Of a stretch of DNA of 37,207 nucleotides, positions 90 through 31,678 are shown in pieces. The notes under the pieces were generated by a model, which saw nothing but the letters and a program-made list of their open reading frames with translations, ran no database searches and was not told the DNA's origin. The translations under genes were made by a program, and so were the position numbers. The first letter of the stretch is position 1. Every line of letters starts with the position of its first letter. The DNA is taken from the NCBI GenBank assembly GCA_020719385.1, contig DYQK01000020.1:1-37207 (forward strand), read 5' to 3'. The DNA comes from Rikenella microfusus. GTDB lineage: Bacteria; Bacteroidota; Bacteroidia; Bacteroidales; DYQK01.

Positions 90-2645
90 ATGAAAAAAAT
101 TTTTCTCTTTTTGATGTTAGTTTCGCAATTTTTGTACTCGCAAGATTACGAAACTTATACGTATAAACTTTCGCAGTCTAATGCAAATTATACGTTTTGG
201 ACAACTTTGCCCTCGATTCGCGTGTTTAAAAATTCAGAAATTCCGACAGAAACAGGAAATTTAGTGAAAATTTATGCTGCGAAAAACGAATTTGAACCGT
301 TTGTAGTGGTTGTTAAACCAAAAACTTCGGGCAAAATTAAAATTGATTTTGGAAGTTTTGGAAACGAAATGACGACAGAAATGTACGTTGTAAAGTACAT
401 AAATATCACAAAAGTAAGTGATAATTTGGGCAAAACAGGTGCTTATCCCGATGCACTTTTTCCCGTAGAAAATCATTCGACTATTGATGTAACGGCAAAC
501 GAAAATATTTCGCTTTGGTTCTCGGTGTCTGTCTCGCAAAACGCAACGAAAGGAGATTACTCCACAAATGTTTCGGTGGCAGGAGTTAATATTCCTGTGA
601 AATTGCACGTTTTTAACTTTTCTATTCCTGCCGAACTGCACACACATTCGTTGATGTATTTTTCTTTTCAAAATGTTTTGACGAAATATGGCGTCCAAGG
701 AACAGGAACGGAATACTGGAATTACGTTGATAAAATCAAACAATTTTTTATTGACCATCGTCTCACGCCGAGCAACCCGCTTTGGTCGGGAGGTTTAACT
801 TCCAACGGCGGAAATCCGTATATTGACTACGACTGCAACGGCAAATTTACCGACAAAGACGGCATTTGGGGTTTCGAACAGCCTGCAGAGAAATATCTCA
901 AAGGTAAAGATTTCAATAACGGCACAGGTTTTCCGTCATTTATGGCGGCAACATATCGCAACAACGATGCTTCTGCCGACCAACGTCCTGATAATTTTTG
1001 CGGAGTAACAAAATCCTCGTCAGACTGGTACACTGCGGCAAATCCCAATACAAATTACAACACAAAATGGTTTAATTACGTTAAAGCGATGCAAAATTAT
1101 TTGAGCGAAAAGTCATTGTTGAACAAAAGTTATTATTATTTTGCCAATGAACCGCAAGATCAAGCAGATTATGACGCAGTTGCGTGGTATTCGCAAGAGT
1201 TAAAAAAAGTTGCCCCGAATCTGAAATTAATGGTTTCTGAAGAACCTAAACCTGAAATTTTTAATCATTCTAAGTATAAAAACGCAAAAATCGATATTTG
1301 GTTGCCTGTTTTACAAAATTATAACCCGACAATTTCTTTCGACAGAGAGTTAAATCACAAAGAAGAGACTTGGATTTATTTTTTGCACAGCACGCGTCCA
1401 CCGTATTTTAACCCAATAACGTTAGACCATCCAGGAATCGAAAGTAAATTTACAGGTTGGTTTTTGTGGAAATACAGAATCAAAGGAATTGCGTATTACT
1501 CGACCAATAATTGGAGTCAAAATCCATATACTTCGCCGATGAACAGCAATCATAACGGAGAATTATTTTTACTTTATCCGCCTTCGCTAAATAATTCTAA
1601 TATTGCGTATGGCTCGAATCATCATCGTTTTGTGCCTTCGATGCGTTTTGAGTTAATTAGAGACGGACTTGAGGATTACGAATATTTTTATCTTTTAAAC
1701 GGAAATAAAAATCCTGTTCCAAAAACAGCAAATTCTTCGGACAAGCAAGTTGATAAAATCATTCTTGGTTTAACTTCTTACACAAGAGATGACGAATTTT
1801 TATATAATTTGCGAAGGTTAGTCGGTTTAAAACTCGGAAACGAAATTGCAACAATTCCTGATATTAAACCGAATAATTTACATCCGCGTTCTCAGGGAAA
1901 TCCTGGAAATTATTATATAAATTTTCAAGACCCGCAAGGCGAACCAAAGGCGAATCCGTTAGTTGTCGGTGGAAAAACGTACACAAAAATCGGGTGGAAT
2001 TCGTATGACGCAAAACTTGGTTTTGGTTGGTTCGGCGATTTGTCGCACATTAAATATCAATTTCTCTCGTCAGGAAATAACATTTTGCAACAAAGCATCA
2101 TTTATGACGATTGGGGCAGACAAAAAACTTTCGAATTTGACTTGCCAAATGGAAATTATAACGTAACGGTCTCGGTTGGTTGGAAGGATAAAACTTATTC
2201 GCATCAAAAAATTTCTATTGAGGGAATAAATTTTATCAACGATGAAGCAACAACACCTGCGGCACCTTATTTAGTGCGAAAAAAGCAAATTTCAATAACA
2301 GATTACAAATTGACGATGGAAATGGGAATTTTCGATGAATATACGATGTTAAATTATCTGATTATTGAGGCTGTCGGAGGAAATTTTATTAATGAAAGTG
2401 AAAAAGAGTTAATAAATATTTCTCCAAATCCTGCGAAAGAAAATTTAACGGTTTATTTAGGTGAAAAAATTCCTTGCTCGCTGCAAATTTTTGATAACAA
2501 AGGCGTTTTAATTTCGCATTTTGAGAATATTAAGACTTCAGAATTTAATTTCAACGTTTCGAATTTTGCGAAAGGAATTTATTTTCTAAAAATTGTTGAA
2601 AATTCTTCGCAAAAACAACATTTCGCAAAATTTATTGTCGAGTAA
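90..2645 (+). CDS. Secreted GH123/DUF4091-like glycoside hydrolase with T9SS sorting domain
   Basis: An 851-residue secreted protein, probably a carbohydrate-active enzyme. Residues 1-18 form a signal peptide ending near YSQ. The middle part (about 40-600) resembles the GH123/DUF4091 family: YYFANEP around residues 349-355, a WKYRIKGIAYY strand segment, and RDGLEDYEYFYLL, a family hallmark. Family members act on N-acetylhexosaminides. The acid-base pair is normally Asp-Glu, but here it reads Asn353-Glu354, so activity or substrate may differ. Residues about 620-770 look like a malectin-type carbohydrate-binding beta-sandwich (FDLPNGNYNVTVSVG). The last ~75 residues, starting at ISPNPAKENL and ending in a short beta-strand tail, are a T9SS type A sorting domain, implying export across the outer membrane. 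It stands alone, with its own -7 box and a bidirectional terminator downstream. The hydrolase assignment is by motif recognition only. Confidence 0.8.
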   Translation: MKKIFLFLMLVSQFLYSQDYETYTYKLSQSNANYTFWTTLPSIRVFKNSEIPTETGNLVKIYAAKNEFEPFVVVVKPKTSGKIKIDFGSFGNEMTTEMYVVKYINITKVSDNLGKTGAYPDALFPVENHSTIDVTANENISLWFSVSVSQNATKGDYSTNVSVAGVNIPVKLHVFNFSIPAELHTHSLMYFSFQNVLTKYGVQGTGTEYWNYVDKIKQFFIDHRLTPSNPLWSGGLTSNGGNPYIDYDCNGKFTDKDGIWGFEQPAEKYLKGKDFNNGTGFPSFMAATYRNNDASADQRPDNFCGVTKSSSDWYTAANPNTNYNTKWFNYVKAMQNYLSEKSLLNKSYYYFANEPQDQADYDAVAWYSQELKKVAPNLKLMVSEEPKPEIFNHSKYKNAKIDIWLPVLQNYNPTISFDRELNHKEETWIYFLHSTRPPYFNPITLDHPGIESKFTGWFLWKYRIKGIAYYSTNNWSQNPYTSPMNSNHNGELFLLYPPSLNNSNIAYGSNHHRFVPSMRFELIRDGLEDYEYFYLLNGNKNPVPKTANSSDKQVDKIILGLTSYTRDDEFLYNLRRLVGLKLGNEIATIPDIKPNNLHPRSQGNPGNYYINFQDPQGEPKANPLVVGGKTYTKIGWNSYDAKLGFGWFGDLSHIKYQFLSSGNNILQQSIIYDDWGRQKTFEFDLPNGNYNVTVSVGWKDKTYSHQKISIEGINFINDEATTPAAPYLVRKKQISITDYKLTMEMGIFDEYTMLNYLIIEAVGGNFINESEKELINISPNPAKENLTVYLGEKIPCSLQIFDNKGVLISHFENIKTSEFNFNVSNFAKGIYFLKIVENSSQKQHFAKFIVE

Positions 2646-2680
2646 ATTTATTTTTTCACAAAATTTTGTTTGCAAAAAAT

Positions 2681-2716
2681 AAAAACCGCAAGATTTTTGA
2701 GAATCCTGCGGTTTTT
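2681..2716. terminator. Bidirectional terminator between convergent genes
   Basis: AAAAACCGCA (2681-2690) pairs perfectly with TGCGGTTTTT (2707-2716). A further four pairs (GATT/AATC) form beyond one mismatch. The A-rich and T-rich flanks let it end transcription of both the hydrolase (plus) and the metalloprotease (minus), which converge here. Confidence 0.85.
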
Positions 2717-2736
2717 ATTTTTACAAAAAACAAAGT

Positions 2737-5700
2737 TTACTTCTGAATAATCATTTTCTTTGTCTCTCGCAACGTTTTTGACTGCACTAAAATAGTGTAA
2801 ATTCCTGTCGCAACGTTTGAAATATCGATTGTTTCGTGATATTCTCCGCTTTGATTTCCGATTCGTTTCTCAAAAATAGTTTTTCCCGTTTCAGAAATAA
2901 TGCGAATAGTTACAATTTCGCAAGGATTTCCGTGCAACGTTAAACAAAATACGCCATTATTGGGGTTCGGAGAAAGTGTTAAAATTTGCATTCCAAAAGT
3001 TTCGATTCCTGTCAACAAAGTTTTAAACGTACTATCTGCACCAAAAACTACGTTACCCGCTGCGTCAACCGCTTTGATTCTGTAATGATATAATGTATTC
3101 GGTGAAAGTTGAGTCAAATTGGCAGAAACCTGAACATCTGATGAGTCAACAGAAATATTAGGAATCGCATCAACACTGTCGCCGTATTGCGTTGTTGTGC
3201 CAAATTCAAACATAATTTTTGTCAACATTCCTTTTGTGTTCACCATTCCGTTTAATGTTGCAGAAACATTCGAAATATTTAACGCACTTTTCGTTACCGC
3301 AACGAAAGATTCTGTTTTGAAAGTTTTATTTTCACCGACCACAATTCCGTCTTTATTCATCGCTTTTATTCGAAAATAAAAAGTCGTATTAGGTGCAAGT
3401 CCGCTTAAAATGGCAGTTTTCTCAACAAAATCATTCGAAGTAAAAGTATCAGACCATTGAGTTTGATAGCCCAAATTCTCTGTTAGTCCGTACTCGAAAG
3501 CAAAATTTGTCGGCAAACCGTTAGAATTTATCGAAGCATTTAAAATTGCATTCGTTAACCCAATGTTAGTCGCAGCTTCGGTTTTTGCAACGGGCAAACG
3601 TTCTGTTGTTGTAGAAAATTCTTGGATTTCTCCATCGAAGACTCGTTTTCCTTGCAAAAGTTTCACTCTAAAATAATATTTAGAGTTAGGTTTTAAATCT
3701 GTGATTTCTCTTGAGACGTGAAAATTTCCTGTATCATTGAGCGAGACAGGGTTCGCAACGACTGACGTCCAAGATTCTGTGGTATCTTTTGAGAATTCAA
3801 AAATAACTGATGCTGAGAATCCTTTTGCGGTAACTTTTCCGTTCAAAACCGCAGCATTCGAAGCAATATCTGTTGCAGGCAATGTTGTTGCTTGTCCTCG
3901 GAGGTCAATTTGTTCGGTTTTTTCCGCCATTCCGCAGCGATTCTCACCCGTGAGAGTTACTGCATATAAGTCAGATTCGAGATAAACGTGAGTCGGATTT
4001 TCACTTCCTGATGAAGTTTTATCACCGAAGTACCACAAAAAGTTCTCGATATTTTGCGACTGATTTTCGAAAAAGACTGAATCTTTGTGAATTTGATATG
4101 AAAAATCGATTGTCGGGATTTTATCAATTGTTGCTGTTGCTTTTGAACGAATACTTTTACATTCCTTAGGTGCAACTTCAAAATCATAAAAACATGGATA
4201 AACATCCAAATAACCTTGTCCGTTAATTAATCCGACTCCCAGTGCAATTAAATTATTAATTTCGTATGGAAACTGCACATTCGAAGTGTTCATATAAAGT
4301 CCGCTGTTGGGTTCGTAAACAATTAACCCATAAGTTCCTTTTTCGAGAGGGAAATTAATATTCACCCGACTTTCACCTGTGGGCAGGTCAACGGAATTAT
4401 TCCAAATCGGAGTTTGAGTGTTGATGTCAAAAATGTAAAGTGAACGGTAACCTGAATTTTGTGCGTACACTTTTACTGATTTGAGGGTACAATTTTCTTT
4501 TACAATAAAACCAATGCCTGATATTCCTTCTGTGCAATAAATTCCTTCTCCGAAGGTGTTAGTTCTTGGTCCAACATGCAACGGTGAGGGTGTTTCTGCG
4601 ACGAAAAATGTTTTTGAAGAGTCTAAGTTTTCTAAAACGAGCGAATCACCTTCTTCGATTTCGTTTCCACCGATTTCTGTTTCGTACCATTTCAATTTTC
4701 CACCGAATGTTGATGCTGCTTTTAACGTGAGATTTCCTGTGCCGCATCTTTGAGCAGAAAAAGTTTGAGGTGCCGCAGGACGTTGAACTAAAATTACCTC
4801 GTTTATTGAGATAGAATCTTGCCCAAAAGAGTTTTTTACTTTCAATTTTACGGTAAATAAACCGTTTTGTGTGTAAATATGAGATGGATTTTGTTCAATA
4901 CTTGTGTTTCCATCGCCGAATTCCCAAAACCATTCTGTTGTTGGGTTTTGAGAAATGTCGAAAAATTGTATTTCACCCGTGCAAGTATAGTTTTCTGAAA
5001 GTTTAAACATTGCTTTTGGTTTTTCGTTGTTGTGATTGCACAACCAATTCACAGAAAAACCTTCACCTACATCTGATATGTTATGCAAAACTTGATAAAT
5101 TCCGACAATTCCTTTTGTTGAACGAATAATTCCATTTCCATTGGGCAAATTTATTCCCGTATATTCACCGATAAGAGTGTAATTTAACGAGTCAATGATG
5201 TCATAAATTTTCAGCGTGTCGTCGAGAGATAAGTTAAATTCGGTGAAAATCAATGTAATGTTATCTGCCTGTGGCGGGTCAATGGGAATAAAACTTTGTG
5301 CTTCGAGCGGATTTTCACTTCCTTTGTCAAAGATTGTTCCCTCGCAGCCTGTCTGCACATTTCCTTCTCCTGATTCGGGCATCGCAACGCGGCACGGATG
5401 AGCAGGCGAGATAGAAATTAAGTTTTCTTGTAGTAAAGTATCAGAAATACCGCAAGAAGCGTTGCTTGTTGCAATAAGTTTTACCGAGAAATTTCCTGTT
5501 GCGAGATAAGTATGTTTTGGGTTCATTTCGGTGCTTGTTGTTCCGTCTCCGAAGTCCCAAAAATACGAGACGGCGTTGCTGCTTGAGTTTCTGAACGAAA
5601 TTGTAGCAGGTGCTGAGCAGAAATTTGTTTGAAAAACGTTAAATTTTGCGTCTGCTTCGGGAGAATATTTGTTTCCAATTCCTACTGCATAAAAAGCATT

Positions 5701-7431: not shown

Positions 7432-7455
7432 TTTTTGTAAAAATTTTTACAAAAA
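7432..7455. repeat. Perfect 24-bp AT-rich palindrome in the divergent intergenic region
   Basis: The half-site TTTTTGTAAAAA (7432-7443) is followed directly by its reverse complement (7444-7455). It lies in the 250-base gap between the divergent protease and antiporter genes, which otherwise holds only promoter boxes and A/T runs and no gene. It could be an operator or a cruciform-forming sequence. Chance is not excluded, given the extreme A+T content. Confidence 0.45.
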
Positions 7456-16692: not shown

Positions 16693-17175
16693 ATGATTCC
16701 TGAAAAACATTTTCTTTATCCAGGTGCATTGTTTGCGAGTCTAAAATCTGCCGAAATTACAACTATTCTTGGCTCTTGCGTGGCGGTTTGTCTTTGGGAT
16801 AGTGCGTTAAATATCGGCGGAATAAATCATTTTATGCTTCCACTTTGGAACGGACAAGGACTTGCCTCGCCGCGCTACGGAAATATTGCCATCGACAGAC
16901 TTATCAAAAAAATGATTACGTTAGGAAGTAATAAAATTCATCTCATTGCGAAGGTTTTTGGCGGCGGCGAAGTGATTTCGACTAACATCAGTCAGTTTCA
17001 TATTGGGCAACGCAATATTATGTTGGCGAAAGAATTTCTTGAGGAAGAGAAAATTCCGATAATTAGTTCGAGTGTGGGAGGGAAAATGGGCAGAAAAATC
17101 GTATTTCACACAACGACAGGAGAAGTAATTCAGCGTTTTATTCCAATGCAAAACATGCGAGTGGATGAAAATTAA
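16693..17175 (+). CDS. cheD: CheD receptor glutamine deamidase
   Basis: A 160-residue CheD. These enzymes deamidate glutamines on chemoreceptors. The triad is present: Thr23 and Cys29 in TTILGSCVAVCLWD, and His46 in GGINHFMLP. KVFGGG and the segment around IGQRNI are further family motifs, and SSSVGGKMGRKIVFHTTTGEV is the usual end. It starts 14 bases after the kinase-like gene, as the last member of the operon. No cheA, cheW, cheY, cheB, cheR or classical methyl-accepting receptor is in the window, so the substrate may be the non-canonical sensor encoded at 12156. That link is inferred from operon position only. Confidence 0.93.
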   Translation: MIPEKHFLYPGALFASLKSAEITTILGSCVAVCLWDSALNIGGINHFMLPLWNGQGLASPRYGNIAIDRLIKKMITLGSNKIHLIAKVFGGGEVISTNISQFHIGQRNIMLAKEFLEEEKIPIISSSVGGKMGRKIVFHTTTGEVIQRFIPMQNMRVDEN

Positions 17176-17247: not shown

Positions 17248-17255
17248 TATCTTTG
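17248..17255 (+). promoter_or_regulatory. -7 box upstream of arsR
   Basis: TATCTTTG matches TAnnTTTG and lies about 70 bases before the arsR ATG. A TTG at 17220-17222 is 25 bases upstream, longer than the normal spacer, so the -33 is uncertain. The rest of the 150-base gap holds no gene. Confidence 0.5.
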
Positions 17256-17324
17256 CACCGCAAAAAGAGAAGTAAATTTTTCTTTTTTGTTAAAATTTAT
17301 TCCGTTATTTTGTAAAATATTAAA

Positions 17325-17624
17325 ATGAACAAAAATAATTTTTCTGAAAAACATTTATTACTCGCTAAATTTGCAAAAGCAATTAGTCATCCTGTGCGAA
17401 TTTATATTTTGGAAAAACTTTCGAAAATGAATTCTTGCTGCTATAGCGGCGATATTGCGTTAGAATTAAAAGTTGGTCGTTCCTCGCTCTCGCAGCATCT
17501 CAAGGAATTGAAACTCGCAGGGCTGATTCAGGGAGAAATCGAGCCGCCGTTTATAAAATATTGCATAAATCGAGAAAATTGGCAAATTGCAAAACAATTA
17601 TTCAAAGAATTTTTTATTGAGTAA
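17325..17624 (+). CDS. arsR: ArsR-family repressor
   Basis: A 99-residue winged-helix regulator: AKAISHPVRIYILEKLS opens the domain, GDIALELKVGRSSLSQHLKELKLAGLI is the helix-turn-helix, and EPPFIKYCINRENW forms the wing. Cys38-Cys39 (NSCCYSGD) immediately before the HTH and Cys80 after the wing could bind As(III) and release DNA, as in related ArsR proteins. It is followed after 53 bases by the arsenic enzyme, and a perfect palindrome lies in that interval. Autoregulation of the unit is therefore likely. Confidence 0.9.
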   Translation: MNKNNFSEKHLLLAKFAKAISHPVRIYILEKLSKMNSCCYSGDIALELKVGRSSLSQHLKELKLAGLIQGEIEPPFIKYCINRENWQIAKQLFKEFFIE

Positions 17625-17640
17625 AATTTTTTTAAACTTC

Positions 17641-17660
17641 ATTTCGTTAATTAACGAAAT
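17641..17660. promoter_or_regulatory. Perfect 20-bp palindrome, candidate ArsR operator
   Basis: ATTTCGTTAA is followed directly by its reverse complement TTAACGAAAT, without a loop, between the arsR stop and the arsenic enzyme start at 17678. The absence of a loop favours a dimeric repressor site over a terminator. No second copy was seen upstream of arsR, and no TAnnTTTG box is evident between it and 17678. Confidence 0.6.
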
Positions 17661-17677
17661 TCTAAAATGAATTTGTT

Positions 17678-18898
17678 ATGAAAATCTTAATTATCTGCAC
17701 AGGAAATACCTGTCGAAGTCAAATGGCTGAAGGTTTTTTAAAATCTTTAGACAAAAATTTGCAAGTTTTTTCTGCAGGAACGTTCGCACAGCAAAATGTT
17801 AACCCTCACGCAATCAAGGCAATGGCTGAAATTGGAATCGATATTAGTGAGAATGTTCCCAAAAATGTGAAGAAATTTTTGAATGAAAATTTCGATTTCG
17901 TTGTAACGGTTTGCGATGGGGCGAAAGAAATTTGCCCGAATTTTACAGGCAATGTTAAACATCGTTTTCACATTGGTTTCGAAGATCCTGCTTCCGCAGA
18001 AGGCACAGAAAATGAAATTTTGTCGGTTTATCGAAAAGTACGAGACGAAATTTGCGAACAATTTAAACAATTTTATCTCGAAAATTTACGAGATATTAAG
18101 GAAATTGTTAAGGAAAAATACAGCGAAATTGCGTTGCAGTCGCAGCAGGAAAACGAAACTTCTTGCTGCGGAAGCGGCACTTGTTGCAATATCGATTATG
18201 TCGTTTTTAGCGAAAATTATGAAAAATTGCAGGGTTACAACGCAGCCGCCGATTTAGGTTTAGGTTGCGGACTTCCTACGGAATTCGCACAAATCAAAAA
18301 AGGAGACACCGTCATCGATTTGGGTTCGGGAGCAGGAAACGATTGTTTTGTCGCAAGAGCCATTGTCGGCGAGGAAGGTTTAGTTATCGGCGTTGATATG
18401 ACGGAAGCGATGATTTTAAAAGCAAAAACCAACGCTGAGAAATTAGGTTACAAAAACGTTCAATTTCGTTTGGGAGACATTGAAAAGTTGCCCGTCACAG
18501 CGAATAAAGCCGATGTTGTTGTCAGCAATTGCGTTTTGAATCTTGTTCCTGACAAGGAAAAAGCATTTTCTGAAATTTTTCGCGTGTTGAAATTGAACGG
18601 GCATTTTTCGATTTCTGATGTCGTTTTAGTGGGAAATTTGCCTGCAAAATTGGCAAACGCTGCGGCAATGTATGCGGGTTGCGTGGCTGGAGCAATGCAA
18701 AAAAATGATTATCTCGAAATTATTGAAAAAACAGGTTTTAAAAACATTCAGATTCAGAAGGAAAAACAAATTCATATTCCTGACGAAGTGCTTTTAAATT
18801 TTCTTTCGAATGACGAATTAGAAAATTTTAAAAAATCGAATGTCGGCATTTTCAGTATTACCGTTTATGCAAAAAAACAGAAATGTTGCTGTTGTTAA
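17678..18898 (+). CDS. arsC-arsM: Arsenate reductase-arsenite methyltransferase fusion (ArsC-ArsM)
   Basis: One 406-residue chain joins two arsenic enzymes. Residues 1-135 are a thioredoxin-coupled, low-molecular-weight-phosphatase-type arsenate reductase: P-loop CTGNTCR (Cys7-Arg13), with the resolving pair Cys79 and Cys86 in CDGAKEIC, the same spacing as Staphylococcus ArsC. After a linker to about 160, residues about 165-400 are an ArsM SAM-dependent As(III) methyltransferase: a CCGSGTCC cysteine cluster, ADLGLGCGLP, the SAM motif IDLGSGAGND, GVDMTEAMI, SNCVLNL and YAGCVAGA. These include the three cysteines expected to bind arsenite. A CCCC tail ends the protein. It could reduce As(V) and methylate the As(III) product without release. 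No efflux pump gene is adjacent. The frame is continuous across the junction, so this is a true fusion in this sequence. Confidence 0.93.
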   Translation: MKILIICTGNTCRSQMAEGFLKSLDKNLQVFSAGTFAQQNVNPHAIKAMAEIGIDISENVPKNVKKFLNENFDFVVTVCDGAKEICPNFTGNVKHRFHIGFEDPASAEGTENEILSVYRKVRDEICEQFKQFYLENLRDIKEIVKEKYSEIALQSQQENETSCCGSGTCCNIDYVVFSENYEKLQGYNAAADLGLGCGLPTEFAQIKKGDTVIDLGSGAGNDCFVARAIVGEEGLVIGVDMTEAMILKAKTNAEKLGYKNVQFRLGDIEKLPVTANKADVVVSNCVLNLVPDKEKAFSEIFRVLKLNGHFSISDVVLVGNLPAKLANAAAMYAGCVAGAMQKNDYLEIIEKTGFKNIQIQKEKQIHIPDEVLLNFLSNDELENFKKSNVGIFSITVYAKKQKCCCC

Positions 18899-21316: not shown

Positions 21317-22288
21317 ATGTCGCACCTAACTTTTTTTAAAATCGAAAATTTTAAACGTTTCGAAAGTTTTGAACTTTCGAATATTGGGCAGTTTAACATT
21401 ATTGTCGGCGATAATAATGTCGGCAAAACTACTCTTCTCGAAGCCTTGACGGTGCATTCTGCTTTCGATTTGAAAAATTATCTCTTTCATTCTGACATTT
21501 TTCAGAAACTTTTGCAGGCAAAAAACGCAAATTTCACTCAAAAACAAAACGAAGTTTTTAATTTATTTTTAAACAAAGATTCTAAAAAAGATTTTTTAAA
21601 TATTTTTTGGAATTCGGGGCAAAAAACTTTCATTAACGAGAAAAATTGTAAATTAAACGATTTGCCCATTTCTTTTCAAAACGAGAAAGAGTTAAAATTT
21701 CCTTATATTCCGTTTTATAAGGCGTATGATGAGGATTTGGTCGATTTTTATAATCAAATTCGCAAAGACAGAAATAAAAAACGTCAATTAATCGAGCAAT
21801 TGAAAATTTTTATTCCGAATATTGAAAATATTGAGGTCAATACGGAGTATGAAAAACGAATTATTGAAGTTTACGAGACAATTTCTAATTCGCCGCACCC
21901 AATAACTTCCTACGGAGATGGGGCAAATAAACTTTTGAGAATTTTATTTGAGATTGCGACTAACGAAAATGAGAAATTAATGGTTGACGAAATTGAAACA
22001 GGAATTCATTTTTCGCGTTTCGAAAAATTTTGGGAAATTGTTATAACCGCTGCAAAAACGTTTAATGTGCAATTATTTCTCACAACGCATAATGCGGAAT
22101 GTTTGTTGTATTTTAGTGAAGTTTTGAAAAAAGAGAATCTCAAAAAGTTGCAAAAAAGCACGCGTGCTTACACCTTGCGAGAACTTCCTGACAAAAAAAC
22201 CGTAAAATCTTATTTGCGAGAATTTGAGGAATTTGAGTATATCGCAAATTATTATCGCACCGAACAAAATGCAGAAATGAGAGGGTAA
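21317..22288 (+). CDS. AAA/ABC-type ATPase of the OLD/AAA_15-21 group
   Basis: A 323-residue ATPase. Walker A is GDNNVGKTTLL (Gly31-Thr38), after the family opening FFKIENFKRFESFEL. The signature-like stretch ITSYGDGANKLLRIL, Walker B EKLMVDEIETGIHFSRF and the H-loop FLTTHNAECL follow. It is shorter than full OLD proteins and has no TOPRIM of its own. The next gene, three bases away, supplies a TOPRIM-like protein, so the pair resembles split OLD-family systems such as PARIS. It lies between housekeeping rsmH and the AddB-like gene, with only 15 bases after rsmH. The specific system cannot be named from sequence alone. Confidence 0.85.
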   Translation: MSHLTFFKIENFKRFESFELSNIGQFNIIVGDNNVGKTTLLEALTVHSAFDLKNYLFHSDIFQKLLQAKNANFTQKQNEVFNLFLNKDSKKDFLNIFWNSGQKTFINEKNCKLNDLPISFQNEKELKFPYIPFYKAYDEDLVDFYNQIRKDRNKKRQLIEQLKIFIPNIENIEVNTEYEKRIIEVYETISNSPHPITSYGDGANKLLRILFEIATNENEKLMVDEIETGIHFSRFEKFWEIVITAAKTFNVQLFLTTHNAECLLYFSEVLKKENLKKLQKSTRAYTLRELPDKKTVKSYLREFEEFEYIANYYRTEQNAEMRG

Positions 22289-22291
22289 AAT

Positions 22292-22885
22292 ATGAAAACA
22301 GTTTTTATTTTTGTAGAAGGCAAAGCCGACCAAAAATTTTTCAAAGATTATTTCAATTTTCTTTCCTCAAAAGATATTCGTTTCAAAGATGTTTTTAAAA
22401 TTATTGAAATCGGAGGAAAAGATAATTTAAAAAATCGAATTGCGACAATTAAGGAAAATATGGAGCAACATATTCCTACTTTGCTTATTTTCGATGCCGA
22501 TTCTGTTGAAAATGAAGGCGGTTTTGAGAAAAGATGCAGTGAAATCGAAGATTTTCGCAAAGAAAAAGAGTTAAATTTTGAGTATTTTCTGCTGCCAAAT
22601 CACAAAGATGACGGCGATTTAGAAAATTTATTGGAAAAAATTACAAATTCTGACAACAACGAGATTTTTAGTTGTTGGGGAAAATACGAAAAATGTTTAG
22701 AAAATATCGAAATAAAAGGGAAAAAGTTAAAACTTCCTGCTCGAAAAACTAAAATGTACGCATATTTAGAAGTTTTGAACGGAAATCCGAGTTATGAAAA
22801 ACGAGATTATACCGATTCTGAACATTGGAATTTAGAAAACGAATTTTTAAAACCATTGAAAAAATTTTTCGAAAAATTTGTGTAA
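22292..22885 (+). CDS. TOPRIM-like DUF3226 protein, partner of the ATPase
   Basis: A 197-residue protein with a TOPRIM-type core: FVEGKADQKFF with acidic Glu9, and LLIFDADS with Asp68 and Asp70 in the DxD motif. The GGKDNL segment and the end TDSEHWNLENEFLKPLKKFF are typical of DUF3226. TOPRIM proteins of this kind are often metal-dependent nucleases or effectors paired with an ATPase. It lies three bases after the ATPase and three bases before the AddB-like gene, so co-translation is likely. Whether it cuts nucleic acid is not known from sequence. Confidence 0.78.
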   Translation: MKTVFIFVEGKADQKFFKDYFNFLSSKDIRFKDVFKIIEIGGKDNLKNRIATIKENMEQHIPTLLIFDADSVENEGGFEKRCSEIEDFRKEKELNFEYFLLPNHKDDGDLENLLEKITNSDNNEIFSCWGKYEKCLENIEIKGKKLKLPARKTKMYAYLEVLNGNPSYEKRDYTDSEHWNLENEFLKPLKKFFEKFV

Positions 22886-25913: not shown

Positions 25914-26813
25914 ATGTTGCACAGAAAATTTAAAGATATTCTTAGTGTCGGAGCAACACTTTTTAGTGTCTGTCTGATTCTTTTAATTATCTTTTCAATC
26001 TTAATTACAGTTTTGATACAAGGTTGGGAGAAAGTGTCGTGGTCTTTTCTTACCGAATTTCCCAAAGAAGGAATGACACAAGGCGGAATTTTTCCTGCCA
26101 TTGTCGGAACAACATTGATGGTTTTATTAATGACCCTTGCCGCAGTGCCTTTTGGGACAATTACTGCAATTTATTTAGCCGAATATTCTTCTGAAAAATC
26201 AGTTATCGCAAAAACTATTCGATTTGCAGTGCGAACTCTTGCTGTTGTACCATCAATAATATTCGGATTATTTGGATTGGGTTTTTTCATCAAATTTATT
26301 GGGACCAATATTGACGATTTTTTCAACAACGGAATTTTACATTGGGGACAACCCAATATTTTGTGGGCAAGTCTTACGATGGCATTATTGACGCTTCCTG
26401 TAGTTATTGTTTCTGTTGAAGAGTCGATTCGCACCGTGCCGCGCGAATTGCGTGAGGCAAGTCTCGCTTTAGGTGCAACAAAATGGCAAACAATCAAAAA
26501 AATTGTGATTCCAGGTTCTTTGTCTGGCATTTTAACGGGAACAATTTTGGCAGTTAGTCGCGGGGCAGGCGAAGTTGCACCGATTCTTTTTACAGGAGCA
26601 GCTTATTATTTGGCAGAATTGCCCAATTCTTTGAACGAACAGTTCATGTCACTCGGCTATCATATATATATAATGTCCACACAATCGACTAATGTTGATG
26701 CCACCGTTCCCATTCAATTTGCAACAACACTCATTTTATTACTTCTAACCTTCGGCTTAAATCTTTCTGCCGTTTTTCTTCGAAGCCGAATACGCAAAAA
26801 ACAAGTGAAATAA
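25914..26813 (+). CDS. pstA: Phosphate ABC transporter permease PstA
   Basis: A 299-residue inner-membrane permease with about six helices. Family motifs are [88 protein letters not shown] (the cytoplasmic EAA-type loop that contacts PstB) and [17 protein letters not shown]. It is the first gene of its unit, directly after a Pho-box promoter. The usual order is pstS-pstC-pstA-pstB-phoU, and here pstS and pstC come last in a separate unit downstream. Confidence 0.94.
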
Positions 26814-26820
26814 ACATTTT

Positions 26821-27579
26821 ATGAAAGAAATTAAGGTAAAAGTGAATCATTTGTCGCTTTTTTACGGAGAAAAGCAAGCATTGAAAAATATTTCAATGAA
26901 CATTCCTTCGCAAAAAGTTACAGCACTTATTGGTCCTTCAGGTTGTGGAAAATCGACTTTTTTGCGCGCCCTGAACCGAATGAATGATTTAATCGATAAT
27001 GTTCGTGTTGAAGGCGAAGTTCTCATTGATGAGGTCGATATTTATAGCAAAAATATTGATGTGGTAAATTTGCGTAAACGAGTCGGGATGATTTTTCAAA
27101 AATCGAATCCTTTCGCAAAATCAATTTACGAAAATGTCATTTATGGTTCTCGAATCAATGGAATCCATAACAAAAAAATCTTAGACGAGATAGTTGAGTT
27201 CTCGCTCAAGCAAGCCGCCATTTGGGATGAAGTAAAAGACCGTTTACATTATTCTGCACTCGGATTATCGGGCGGACAACAACAACGGTTGTGTATTGCG
27301 CGAACATTAGCGGTAAATCCTGAAATTATTTTAATGGACGAACCCGCAAGTGCGTTAGACCCAATTTCGACCTCAAAGATTGAGGAATTGATTCATCATT
27401 TGAAAAAAACATTCACCATCGTGATAGTTACGCACAATATGCAACAAGCCGCTCGCACAAGCGATTATACGGCGTTTTTTTACCTCGGCGAACTCGTAGA
27501 AATGGATAAAACAAAGACTATTTTTACCTCGCCGAGTAAAAAACAAACAGAAGATTATATTTCAGGACGTTTTGGTTAA
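26821..27579 (+). CDS. pstB: Phosphate ABC transporter ATP-binding protein PstB
   Basis: A 252-residue ATPase that powers phosphate import. Walker [10 protein letters not shown], the PstB-typical [12 protein letters not shown]-loop [16 protein letters not shown], signature [16 protein letters not shown], Walker [13 protein letters not shown] and H-loop [23 protein letters not shown] are all present. The length is normal. It starts seven bases after the pstA stop, so translation is probably coupled. Confidence 0.96.
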
Positions 27580-27600
27580 AAATTTTTTAAATTTTTCATT

Positions 27601-28287
27601 ATGCAGGTATTTTTTGAAAAAGAAATTACAAAATTGCAGAATCAAATTGCAAAATTGTTCGATTTGGTTTATTTGCAGATAGAAAAGATTATTCTCGCAC
27701 TTTTCTCAGAGGAAGACAACGATTTTGACGTCATTCGACAGAATGAAAACAAAATTGACAAAATTGATGTCAAAATTGATAAATTATGTCAGAAAATTTT
27801 TGCACTTGCTCAGCCTGTTGCAACAGATTTACGGTTTTTAATGTCATCTTTAAAAATTAACAACGAATTAGAACGCATCGGCGATATTGCGTTTAATATT
27901 ATTCACCGAGCAGAAATTGTGAAACAAATGCCCGAGATGTTGTTGAAATTGAAATTTGACGAGTATGTGCAAATTATTTTGTCGATGTATAAAAATGTTC
28001 ATCTGTCGTATCAAAATCAAGATTCCGAGCAAGCAAAAGAAATTGTTTTGCAGGGAAAACAACTCAAGGAAAAAAGTCAGGCAATATTAAACGAGATTAT
28101 CTCCCAAATGATTGCAAAAACCGAAGTTTTAATCATTGCAACAGATTTGATTTTGATTTTGCGAGAAATGGAAAGAATTGTCGGACATATCGAAAACATT
28201 GCGGAATCAATAGTTTTTGTTACCGAAGGGAAAATTATTCGACATCCGAAGTTAAAAGATGCAGAAAATCTTGATGATGAAGACTAA
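27601..28287 (+). CDS. phoU: Phosphate signalling regulator PhoU
   Basis: A 228-residue all-helical protein with the two-repeat PhoU fold: F.KEITKLQNQIAKLFDLVYLQIEKII, then DLRFLMSSLKINNELERIGDIAFNI, and in the second half DLILILREMERIVGHIENIAESIVFVTEG. Both metal-binding-type E/D...ERIGD-like clusters are present. PhoU damps transport and Pho kinase signalling when phosphate is plentiful. It closes the first pst unit and is followed by a terminator. Confidence 0.94.
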   Translation: MQVFFEKEITKLQNQIAKLFDLVYLQIEKIILALFSEEDNDFDVIRQNENKIDKIDVKIDKLCQKIFALAQPVATDLRFLMSSLKINNELERIGDIAFNIIHRAEIVKQMPEMLLKLKFDEYVQIILSMYKNVHLSYQNQDSEQAKEIVLQGKQLKEKSQAILNEIISQMIAKTEVLIIATDLILILREMERIVGHIENIAESIVFVTEGKIIRHPKLKDAENLDDED

Positions 28288-28297
28288 ATATTTCAAA

Positions 28298-28328
28298 AAA
28301 TTCTCTTTTCAAAAAGAGAATTTTTTTT
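28298..28328 (+). terminator. Terminator after phoU
   Basis: AAATTCTCTTTT (28298-28309) is complementary to AAAAGAGAATTT (28312-28323), with a tight loop in which the innermost pairs must open, and the T-run continues to 28328. The T-run runs into the first TTGTAAC of the next Pho promoter, so the two pst units are clearly separated. Confidence 0.8.
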
Positions 28329-28406
28329 GTAACCATTTTGTAACTCGAAATTCGTAAAAATGTTACATTTTCTCAACCAAGTTGTAATAATTTTTTTTGA
28401 CTTTTG
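28327..28406 (+). promoter_or_regulatory. Pho-box promoter of porin-pstS-pstC
   Basis: TTGTAAC repeats at 28327-28333 and 28338-28344 (11-bp period), the following CGTAAAA stretch, TTGTAAT at 28382-28388 and GACTTTTG at 28399-28406. Offsets from the first repeat are 55 and 72 bases, exactly as in the promoter at 25814. The first ~30 bases differ at one position only. Confidence 0.8.
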
Positions 28407-28441
28407 TAACGTGAAAAATAAAATTTTTAACACACAAAAAA

Positions 28442-29635
28442 ATGAAAAAACTCGTCACATTTTTGGGTTTAACGTTTTTCTTTTTTCAAAGTTTCGCACA
28501 AATTTCTGTGGACTCGTTAAACGAAAAAGTCGGTGAACAAAACGGCAGAATCAATGCCTTGGAGGAAAGTTCAGCCGCCATGCAAAGCGATTTAGGAAAA
28601 TTAACAAAAATTAAGGTTTCGGGCTACATTCAAGCACAATACGAAAATTATGAAACCGATTTAGTCAAAAAAACAGGCGACCCTTTTGATGTCTTTTTCA
28701 TCCGCCGAGCAAGAGTGAAGTTCACCTACGAAGCACTCGAAGGTGTTCAATTCGTTTTACAACCCGATTTTTCTACCAACAATCTCTCGCTCAAAGATGC
28801 TTATGTGGTTGTAAACGACCCTTGGCTGAACATTTTTTCCCTTTGGGCAGGACAATTTAATCGACTCAATTATGAAGTGGAATATTCCTCTACGCAAAGA
28901 GAAGTGCTTGAACGCTCAAGAGTAATTCGCAGTATTTATCCTGGAGAACGCGAAATTGGGTTAAAATTGGAAATTGCTCCGCAAAAAATTCCGTTAAAAT
29001 TTCAAATTGCAATGTTAAACGGAAACTTCACAGGAAAAGAAGCGAAAGATTCTGACGGAAAGAAAGATATTATGGCAAGATTAATTTATTCGGTAAATTT
29101 GTCAAGTCTTGGAATCGGAATCGACCTCGGCGGACATTTTTATAACGGCGGAATCCGACAAAACTCCACAAAGTATTTCTCCGACATTGACAGCAAAATC
29201 GACAGCACTTCGCAATTTGATTATCTCAAAAAACAATGGTTCGGACTCGAGGCACAAATGTATTTTGACATCTTAGGCGGAATGTCGTTGAAAGGCGAAT
29301 ATATAAACGGTGTAAATTCCTCCATCGGCGATTCGCAAAAAAATCCGTATAAATCAAGAGAATTTTCAGGTTTTTACGCATATTTTATCAAAAATATCGG
29401 CACAAAACATCAACTTGTTGCTCGTTATGACTTCTTCGACCCAAATACAAAAACAGCAAGCGAGGAAGCAAGCAGCGAAGTGTTTTATAAAACCTGGACT
29501 TTTGCGTGGCAATATTATTTCAATGATTTTATCCGAATCTCGTTTAATTACGAAATGCCGCAAAACGAAACAAACAGCAAAAACAAAGATTTAAAAGACA
29601 ATGTTTTTGGAATTCGTTTACAGGCAAAATTTTAA
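28442..29635 (+). CDS. Outer-membrane phosphate-selective porin (OprO/OprP family)
   Basis: A 397-residue outer-membrane beta-barrel protein: signal peptide to about residue 19 (FFFFQSFAQ), a short coiled coil (about 22-60: LNEKVGEQNGRINALEES) that probably trimerises it, then barrel strands beginning KVSGYIQAQYENY. FFIRRARVKFTYEALEGVQFVLQPDF and the end FGIRLQAKF with terminal Phe are typical of the OprO/OprP family. It sits between a Pho-box promoter and pstS, so phosphate or polyphosphate uptake across the outer membrane is the likely role. Specificity is inferred from context. Confidence 0.9.
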   Translation: MKKLVTFLGLTFFFFQSFAQISVDSLNEKVGEQNGRINALEESSAAMQSDLGKLTKIKVSGYIQAQYENYETDLVKKTGDPFDVFFIRRARVKFTYEALEGVQFVLQPDFSTNNLSLKDAYVVVNDPWLNIFSLWAGQFNRLNYEVEYSSTQREVLERSRVIRSIYPGEREIGLKLEIAPQKIPLKFQIAMLNGNFTGKEAKDSDGKKDIMARLIYSVNLSSLGIGIDLGGHFYNGGIRQNSTKYFSDIDSKIDSTSQFDYLKKQWFGLEAQMYFDILGGMSLKGEYINGVNSSIGDSQKNPYKSREFSGFYAYFIKNIGTKHQLVARYDFFDPNTKTASEEASSEVFYKTWTFAWQYYFNDFIRISFNYEMPQNETNSKNKDLKDNVFGIRLQAKF

Positions 29636-29663
29636 TTCACAAAATAAAAAAATCTTTACAAAA

Positions 29664-30488
29664 ATGAGAAAAGTAAGTTTAATTCTCGGTTTAATTGTGT
29701 CAATAATTGGTTTATCTTTTGTTTTACAAACCAAAATTACCGTTAAAGGTTCAGACACAATGGTCATTCTCTCGCAACGATGGGCAGAATTGTATATGAA
29801 ACAACATTCCGATGTTTCCATTCAGGTAACAGGCGGCGGCTCGGGAGTCGGTATTTCTGCGTTGATAAATGGGACAACAGACATTGCAAACTCAAGTCGT
29901 CCAATTAAAAAAACGGAAATTGAAAAGTTAAAATCTCGTCATAACACTTTGGGCGTCGAAATTCCTTGTGCAAAAGACGGAATAACCATTTATTTACACG
30001 AATCAAACAAAGTTTCCGAACTCAGTTTGAAACAGTTGAGTGATATTTATGCAGGTAGAATCACAAACTGGAACCAAGTCGGCGGCGAAAATGCTGAAAT
30101 AAAATTGTACGGCAGAGAAAATAGTTCAGGAACTTATATGTACTTCAAAGACGAAGTCGTAAAAACCGATTATGCCGCTTCCTGTCAAACACTTCCCGGC
30201 ACCGCTGCTGTGGTCAACGCAGTGAAAAAAGATAAACTCGGAATCGGATACGGCGGAGCAGCCTTCGCAGTTGGAGTAAAACATTGCAAAGTCAAGAAAA
30301 ATGCCAATTCGCAAGCATTTTTGCCGACAAAAGAAACCATCGCAAGCAACGAATATCCCATTTCTCGCTATCTCTATATGTATTTACGTTCACGACCAAC
30401 AGGTGAAACGAAAAAATTTATAGATTGGATTCTTGGTGCCGAAGGACAAAAATTGGTTACTGAAGTGGGTTATTTCCCTGTAAAATAA
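29664..30488 (+). CDS. pstS: Phosphate-binding protein PstS
   Basis: A 274-residue periplasmic binding protein. The start at 29664 gives a signal peptide (MRKVSLILGLIVSIIGLSF). The longer frame to 29601 overlaps the porin and lacks a signal. Ligand motifs are KGSDTMVILSQRWAE, VTGGGSGVGISALINGTTDIANSSRPIK, GRITNWNQVGG, and GRENSSGTYMYFKDEV, whose Arg-Glu-Asn-Ser-Ser-Gly-Thr contacts phosphate in relatives. It belongs to the short PstS-like group. It follows the porin by 28 bases and is separated from pstC by a hairpin and T-run. Confidence 0.93.
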   Translation: MRKVSLILGLIVSIIGLSFVLQTKITVKGSDTMVILSQRWAELYMKQHSDVSIQVTGGGSGVGISALINGTTDIANSSRPIKKTEIEKLKSRHNTLGVEIPCAKDGITIYLHESNKVSELSLKQLSDIYAGRITNWNQVGGENAEIKLYGRENSSGTYMYFKDEVVKTDYAASCQTLPGTAAVVNAVKKDKLGIGYGGAAFAVGVKHCKVKKNANSQAFLPTKETIASNEYPISRYLYMYLRSRPTGETKKFIDWILGAEGQKLVTEVGYFPVK

Positions 30489-30500
30489 TTTTTTAAACTT

Positions 30501-30546
30501 TCGAGATGATTCAATAAGTGAAAAATTGAGTTATCTCGATTTTTTT
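30501..30546 (+). terminator. Hairpin and T-run between pstS and pstC (attenuator-like)
   Basis: Arms 30501-30515 and 30525-30539 pair over 15 positions with two imperfect ones, one of which can be a G-U pair. The loop is nine bases, followed by a run of seven Ts. No promoter box is seen before pstC at 30554, so partial read-through would give more binding protein than permease. Confidence 0.72.
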
Positions 30547-30553
30547 CGAAAAA

Positions 30554-31678
30554 ATGAAAAAAATGAAAACACAAGAAAAAAATAATTTAGAGAAACAAAG
30601 TTTTCGAGACTCCGTTATGCGAAAACAATTTCGTCTTTCCGAATTTTTGATAGAAAAATTTATTCAGTTAATAGCGTTTTTGTCTATTGCGATAGTTTTG
30701 TTGATTTTTATTTTTGTCTTTCGAGAGACTTTGCCGATTTTTCAACATTCCGAAAAACCTAACACTTCGATTATTGCTGATTCAACAAAGTTAAAACCTG
30801 AAACTTACGGCGAAAATACTGAAGAGTTAAAACCCGAAACTTATGGCGATGTTGTTGCTCAAGATTCTGCGAAAAAACCGGAAGTAAACGATTCTGAATC
30901 TCGAAAAACAGAAAACGAAGGCAGTTTAAGTACGTTATTATCAAAAGATTGGTTGCCTGTTTCTGATGAACCGCGTTATGGACTTTTGCCCTTATTGGTT
31001 GGAACGTTAAAAATTACAATTATCTCGATTTTAATTGCGGCACCTTTAGCGATTTTGGCAGCGTTATATACCTCAGTTTTTGCCCCAAAAAGATTGCGAG
31101 AATATATAAAACCAGCAGTCGAGTTGTTGGCAAGTTTTCCGTCTGTCGTGATAGGATTTTTTGCTTTGACAATCTTAGCAAGTGTTTTTCAGGATATTTT
31201 TGGATATTCCTCTCGTTTGAATGCGTTTGTCGGTGGAATTGCTATGGCGTTAGCCGCCATTCCTGTCATTTACACCATTACCGAAGATGCTTTGAGTTCT
31301 GTTCCCAAAACTTATACCGAAGCAAGTTTAGGACTCGGTGCAAATTTGCGACAAACCGCTTTTATGATTATTCTCCCTGCTGCCACGCCGGGAATTTTTG
31401 CCGCCATACTTTTAGGAATCGGACGAGTTTTTGGAGAAACGATGATTGTTTTGATGGCAACAGGAAATGCTGCAATTATCTCGGCAAATCCGTTTGATTC
31501 GGTGCGAACCTTCTCCGCAACTATCGGCGCAGAAATGGCAGAAGTAGTTTTCGGTGATACACATTATAGCGTTTTATTTTTAATCGGCTCTTTGCTTTTT
31601 ATTTTCACTTTTTCCCTCAACGCCATTGCAGAATTTTACGTCAAAAACAAGTTAGTCAAAAAAATTCAGGGGAAATAA
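30554..31678 (+). CDS. pstC: Phosphate ABC transporter permease PstC with periplasmic insertion
   Basis: A 374-residue permease. TM1 lies at about residues 36-58, and the other helices follow after residue 140. Motifs are YGLLPLLVGTLKITIISILIAAPLAILAALY, KPAVELLASFPSVVIGFFAL, ITEDALSSVPKTYTEASLGLGANLRQTAF and GIGRVFGETMIVLMATGNA. Between TM1 and the conserved DWLPVSDEPRYG segment there is an unusual hydrophilic stretch (about 65-125) with a duplicated LKPETYG and many Glu/Lys/Ser residues. It probably projects into the periplasm. A start at the second Met (30563) is possible. It is the last gene of the porin-pstS-pstC unit. Confidence 0.93.
   Translation: MKKMKTQEKNNLEKQSFRDSVMRKQFRLSEFLIEKFIQLIAFLSIAIVLLIFIFVFRETLPIFQHSEKPNTSIIADSTKLKPETYGENTEELKPETYGDVVAQDSAKKPEVNDSESRKTENEGSLSTLLSKDWLPVSDEPRYGLLPLLVGTLKITIISILIAAPLAILAALYTSVFAPKRLREYIKPAVELLASFPSVVIGFFALTILASVFQDIFGYSSRLNAFVGGIAMALAAIPVIYTITEDALSSVPKTYTEASLGLGANLRQTAFMIILPAATPGIFAAILLGIGRVFGETMIVLMATGNAAIISANPFDSVRTFSATIGAEMAEVVFGDTHYSVLFLIGSLLFIFTFSLNAIAEFYVKNKLVKKIQGK

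Follow-up and report, generated by a model that had tools for sequence, protein, structure and literature searches.

Several proteins are known in which the arsenate reductase ArsC is fused to another arsenic-related protein. The accessible excerpts of PMC6205960 list ArsR-ArsC, Acr3-ArsC of M. tuberculosis, AqpS-ArsC of Salinispora (Wu et al. 2010, cited therein) and ArsN-ArsC, and convey the opinion that ArsC seems 'predestined' to be fused. For the arsenite methyltransferase ArsM, the partial text of PMC10190100 describes an ArsR-ArsM fusion from Brevundimonas sp. M20 that made E. coli resistant to arsenic when expressed there, and that of PMC5552862 reports arsM fused with selD in Naegleria. 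Here we describe a gene that encodes ArsC and ArsM on a single chain. It resembles the ArsC fusions above in joining the reductase to another arsenic function, but in those named in the PMC6205960 excerpts the partner is a regulator, a transporter, a channel or ArsN, not a methyltransferase. It also resembles the Brevundimonas protein as a natural fusion of the ArsM type, although the partner there, according to the partial text of PMC10190100, is ArsR and no reductase is present. No description of an ArsC-ArsM fusion was found in the literature searched, which consisted mostly of titles and covered few subscription journals. As far as this search reaches, the combination is undescribed, both enzymes being well known.

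The stretch of DNA analysed, called the window below, is an entire contig (C247) of 37,207 bases, from a genome of 3.66 Mb in 288 contigs that is 98.1% complete. The fused arsC-arsM gene is located on the plus strand at 17678..18898, behind an ArsR-family gene, and its 406 codons are not interrupted by any stop. The original prediction of ArsC and ArsM in one frame is borne out by the domain search of residues 1-406, which gave two family matches, LMWPc at residues 3-132 and NF008823 at residues 138-402; residues 1-134 are assigned to ArsC and residues 138-402 to ArsM. The fusion exceeds chance, because two curated families share one frame and the layout recurs in 7 other complete loci. Given the fragmentation of the source assembly into 288 contigs, an assembly or binning artefact could be suspected, yet the uninterrupted frame and the identical layout of the seven other loci make this extremely improbable. 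The reading that we prefer is that of a two-domain arsenic-detoxifying enzyme under a dispersed ArsR regulon, and as a whole explanation we give it a probability of about 0.75. That the fusion is bifunctional, with both activities predicted from sequence, is likely.

The ArsC half (17678..18079, plus strand) has the LMW-PTP fold according to Pfam, alignment and fold match. Its score with PF01451 (LMWPc, Pfam) is 74.7 bits, above the cut-off of 23.2. With the more specific thioredoxin ArsC family TIGR02691 (NCBIfam) residues 4-132 reach 129 bits, below the cut-off of 174.3. This sub-cut-off score looks like a lineage trait and not decay, because four unfused ArsC of related genomes (126.1-134.9 bits) and another fusion (123.3 bits) score alike. 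Cys7, Cys12, Cys79 and Cys86 align with cysteines of B. subtilis ArsC (1jl3, E 1.5e-29), an alignment in which the CX5R catalytic cysteine and two resolving cysteines are present, and all four are invariant across the 8 fusions. We take Cys7, Cys79 and Cys86 to be the catalytic cysteines. The LMW-PTP fold and the relay cysteines are thus those of thioredoxin-type ArsC (1jl3, and Deinococcus indicus ArsC2, 8p6m). The differences are the TIGR02691 score, which lies below the cut-off as in the four unfused relatives tested, and the last ArsC helix, which is predicted to continue into ArsM. Though outside the TIGR02691 equivalog, the ArsC half is predicted to work like a thioredoxin-type ArsC: it would use Cys7, Cys79 and Cys86 as a relay to convert As(V) into As(III), and a thioredoxin-like protein would recharge this relay. 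The fusion holds the sole LMWPc match in the 98%-complete genome, and a family search of the same genome found no PF03960 ArsC.

The ArsM half (18089..18883, plus strand, residues 138-402) is assigned by NCBIfam, alignment and fold match. It scores 347.9 bits with the arsenite methyltransferase family NF008823 (NCBIfam, cut-off 263), and residues 206-353 match Methyltransf_31 (Pfam) with 146.7 bits, above the cut-off of 27. Cys197, Cys285 and Cys335 align with cysteines of CrArsM (5evj), are invariant across the 8 fusions and are presumably the As(III)-binding cysteines, at which As(III) would be methylated with SAM. The active-site residues expected for the two halves have in this way all been found in their place. 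The three As-site cysteines and the fold are shared with ArsM/AS3MT enzymes (CrArsM 5evj, CmArsM 4fr0, human AS3MT 8xt7); in contrast to these, the ArsM of the fusion has no free N-terminus and is probably made only as a second half. Codons 110-240 contain no in-frame ATG, GTG or CTG, and the sole start-type codon among ATG, GTG, TTG and CTG is TTG, at codons 115, 153, 184 and 215. With no in-frame ATG in this region, ArsM is therefore probably produced only within the fusion, with no separate product. The genome contains only one other match to the fusion query, with 27% over 103 residues.

In the AlphaFold2 model of the fusion (pLDDT 90.4, pTM 0.80) the domains are joined by a predicted continuous helix of residues 111-153 (18008..18136, plus strand). 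Residues 1-138 of the model superpose on two ArsC structures, 8p6m (Z 22.7, rmsd 1.1 with 129 residues aligned) and 1jl3 (Z 20.9, rmsd 1.4 with 121), and residues 179-403 on CrArsM 5evj (Z 24.7, rmsd 2.5 with 212). The Foldseek and VIA match lists for the model consist mostly of methyltransferases. The second fusion modelled, L026, which belongs to a separate lineage, also has a continuous helix (residues 111-161; pLDDT 90.0, pTM 0.86), longer by 8 residues. Two cysteine-rich stretches of the window's protein had attracted attention, a CCGSGTCC cluster (18164..18187, plus strand, residues 163-170) and a CCCC tail (18884..18895, plus strand, residues 403-406), which, it was proposed, could hand over arsenic between the two sites. 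In such a channelling mechanism, As(III) would be passed from ArsC to ArsM via the cysteine cluster without being released, and this would be the reason why the fusion was selected. Two successive pathway steps on one chain, the occurrence of the fusion in more than one lineage and the position of the cluster between the domains, where model confidence is low, would be consistent with it. However, the cluster is usual in unfused ArsM. Among 129 distinct ArsM rows (121 non-fused, including L101, which is cut at a contig edge, and 8 fused), an N-terminal cluster, defined loosely as CC with another Cys at most 8 residues away or Cys then CC, is present in 112 of the 121 unfused rows and in 7 of the 8 fused ones, L053 and L054 being sliced short and scored as lacking it; the fused L029 has only CCC. 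At least two cysteines within the last 12 residues are found in 72 of the 121 unfused rows and in a single fused row, that of the window, the tail being absent from all 7 other fusions. The reading of the cluster and tail as a fusion-specific relay was therefore rejected. If the joining helix is rigid, its greater length in L026 would alter both how far ArsM lies from ArsC and at what angle, and the differing helix lengths would speak against one fixed channel geometry. We consider channelling unlikely. For the two-domain enzyme that we favour, the main effect of the fusion would probably be fixed 1:1 production and co-location of the two activities rather than a sealed channel.

How widespread is this arrangement? 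Scanning of the contigs of 84,980 species confirmed at least 512 relatives, and the seven other complete fused loci all belong to Bacteroidales or near kin. The best 80 of these at least 512 relatives include six complete fusions (L023-L027 and L029), together with L101, which is cut by the contig edge; the fused loci in this set come from records titled Bacteroidales bacterium, save L027, whose record is titled Draconibacterium orientale. In the genome scans, which could miss a fusion if its match were broken into two parts, one uninterrupted match to the whole query was obtained in three of the 393 genomes scanned from the order, i.e. the window's own genome, G153 (locus L103) and G230, and among 395 genomes of the phylum in the own genome only. 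The G230 fusion corresponds to the L029 locus (identical ArsM). Neither the family of G153 (3 genomes) nor that of G230 (9 genomes) yielded another fused match. Among plasmids, four records span 80% or more of the query, and in each of them the reductase and the methyltransferase are annotated as separate genes. The survey of fused versus separate genes comprised 131 distinct ArsM rows, after removal of five identical rows (L002, L028, L104, L110, L117) and short matches. Eight are fused, 32 have arsC directly before arsM and 10 have it farther apart, 22 have the two genes in the other order, and 59 have no arsC in the DNA examined. Six candidate fusions with long open frames were discarded, either for stops between the genes (G052, G017, G106) or as separate genes (G151, G144, G118). 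Matches to the whole query that contain a stop were obtained for G155 and at two places of G552; G155 is locus L102, whose junction was inspected, and the first G552 place is L126, classed as adjacent by script.

Trees of both halves bear on the origin of the fusion. On the careful ArsM tree (56 of the 131 rows, chosen around the fused lineages, for which the bootstrap had not settled; L101 unscored) the fused label requires 3 changes, and on the quick ArsM tree of all 131 rows, where L101 counts as non-fused, it requires 4. A single ancient fusion that was lost repeatedly, or one fused gene in which the ArsM half was replaced, would fit the tree of the shorter ArsC half, built from the 40 loci in which arsC precedes arsM by no more than 150 nt; 3 changes are needed there too. 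With the groups for pairwise AU tests picked after the first tree, the ArsC tree rejects neither a single clade (p-AU 0.194) nor the pairs (0.252 and 0.225), whereas the ArsM tree rejects a single clade of all fusions (p-AU 0.0068) and also a grouping of the window's fusion with the main fused clade (0.0016) or with L029 (0.021); a grouping of L029 and the main clade is borderline (0.0526). The junction sequences differ too: the main clade has 8 residues that are absent from the window, and in five of its six members these include a Met, perhaps the former start of ArsM. Because the ArsM tree rejects one clade and the junctions differ, our reading of the ArsM evidence is that it points to at least two independent fusions, perhaps three, and a single origin appears rather unlikely.

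The spacing of unfused genes suggests how such events may have happened. For 31 of the 32 adjacent arsC-arsM pairs, with arsM assumed to begin at the closest ATG upstream, stop and start overlap in 16 cases (10 by ATGA) and are 1-4 nt apart in 8 more, so that a small indel could fuse them. The fusion may thus have formed by loss of the stop and start between tightly coupled neighbours. Such ease of formation is also what would be expected if the fusion were near-neutral, both domains working with no gain from being joined, and the scarcity of uninterrupted matches in the order (three genomes of 393, own included) is in line with this. However, one fused clade, comprising six complete loci and the truncated L101, has been retained over some divergence (79-87% for L026 versus four other members), and the fusion is therefore at least well tolerated. 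We rate near-neutrality at somewhat below even odds. In the reading of a functional two-domain enzyme, the fusion represents a natural protein that would tie arsenate reduction to arsenite methylation, seemingly in two or more distinct lineages. Since both steps are on one chain, the effect of their coupling on free As(III) could be tested by cutting the chain.

The predicted ArsR gene is indeed found beside the fusion (17325..17624, plus strand, 99 aa), with PF01022 at 37.9 bits (cut-off 22) and NF033788 at 48 bits (cut-off 55). A CheD chemotaxis gene (PF03975, 93.8 versus cut-off 25; window 16693-17175) is located directly upstream of arsR. TAnnTTTG is a Bacteroidetes promoter element, and DNA alignment of upstream regions revealed a promoter-like TATCTTTG upstream of arsR (17248..17255, plus strand), in a leader common to arsR and acr3 (contig C187) and partly to arsG (contig C46). 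The same alignment revealed that a 31-bp element within the leader of arsR, acr3 and arsG is also present ahead of the fusion. Its first copy in the window, which is operator-like, overlaps the arsR start (17299..17329, plus strand), and the second (17641..17671, plus strand) is situated between arsR and the fusion and includes a perfect 20-bp palindrome (17641-17660); 0.2 palindromes of at least 20 bp are expected per window (dinucleotide model, 20 simulations). A longer perfect palindrome, of 24 bp and A/T-rich, is present between divergent genes at window 7432-7455. In the 3.66-Mb genome the 31-bp element has four sites, each with 0 mismatches, and no further sites at up to 3 mismatches, the reversed-pattern control giving 0; as the pattern was written from these four sites their recovery is circular, and the informative result is that no sites occur beyond the arsenic genes, which were found by protein family. 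The shorter pattern TTCGTN6ACGAA, which represents the half-sites of the palindrome, was considered as well. In 1.09 Mb of loci it occurs at 10 distinct places. At 7 of them, the window's included, an arsR-like ORF is adjacent or overlapping, which leaves 6 of 9 outside the window, the exceptions being L025, L026 and L035; eight control patterns of the same composition have 0-5 places. As a specific operator it was rejected in view of 16 exact places in the own genome, where 374 places are found with at most 1 mismatch versus 145 for the reversed control.

Acr3 of this genome (TIGR00832, 451.9 bits versus cut-off 282.8) is followed by a gene for an ArsE-family thioredoxin (TIGR00412, 110.5 versus 62), and ArsG (NF040495, 311.6 versus 200) by an ArsP_1 permease (253.6 versus 32.3) that is below every NCBIfam cut-off. 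The locus had been described as lacking an efflux gene. This is correct for the window, whose 37,207 bases contain no acr3 because the genome's only Acr3 match sits on another contig, but not for the genome, where acr3-arsE and arsG-permease are found elsewhere, on contigs assigned to it by binning. In the fused loci, acr3 is present in the DNA examined in 6 of 8 cases, the two others being the window's own locus and L025 (9.9 kb examined). Since the 31-bp element precedes acr3-arsE and arsG-permease as well as arsR and the fusion, we infer a dispersed ArsR regulon comprising all four. ArsR would bind the shared palindromic element, repress these genes and be released by As(III). Inorganic As(III) would exit by Acr3, and because Acr3 can export it, methylation would constitute a second route and not a substitute for efflux. 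A compact shared element may thus tie methylation, Acr3 efflux and an ArsG-type permease operon together across one genome. Elsewhere, acr3-arsE is followed in locus L140 by a 140-aa ORF (1612-2034) that begins like a lipoprotein and contains a CxxC motif; it has no Pfam match and has relatives in some other ars loci.

Other ArsM fusions were met in the same phylum, in one to three genomes each and with every partner above its curated cut-off. In L168 (G132, 1712-2788, minus strand), from a genome of the same taxonomic order as the window's, an ArsE-family thioredoxin (TIGR00412, 103.6 versus 62) is found at the ArsM N-terminus. L169 (G582, 1197-2699, minus strand) has ArsM fused to an ArsN2 acetyltransferase (NF040501, 159.3 versus 125) and a Cys tail, and in L173, L174 and L176 (G591, G622, G734) a C-terminal ArsD metallochaperone follows ArsM, above curated cut-offs in 3 of 3. 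Like the window's protein these join ArsM to an arsenic protein, but the partners differ. It could be imagined that the ArsC-ArsM proteins are convergent single-chain enzymes that turn arsenate into methylarsenite with no release of free As(III), as one case of a wider Bacteroidota habit of fusing ArsM to suppliers, carriers or modifiers of arsenic (ArsC, ArsE-type thioredoxin, ArsD chaperone, ArsN2), which we regard as doubtful. Two further regions of the window deserve mention. An apparent phosphate-uptake (pst/phoU) operon, named by eye from translations, is present at 25914-31678 and is a possible entry for arsenate. Neighbouring genes for an AAA_21 ATPase and a DUF3226/OLD-like TOPRIM protein (21317-22885) resemble AbiLi/AbiLii and PDC-M38, which are candidate phage-defence pairs.
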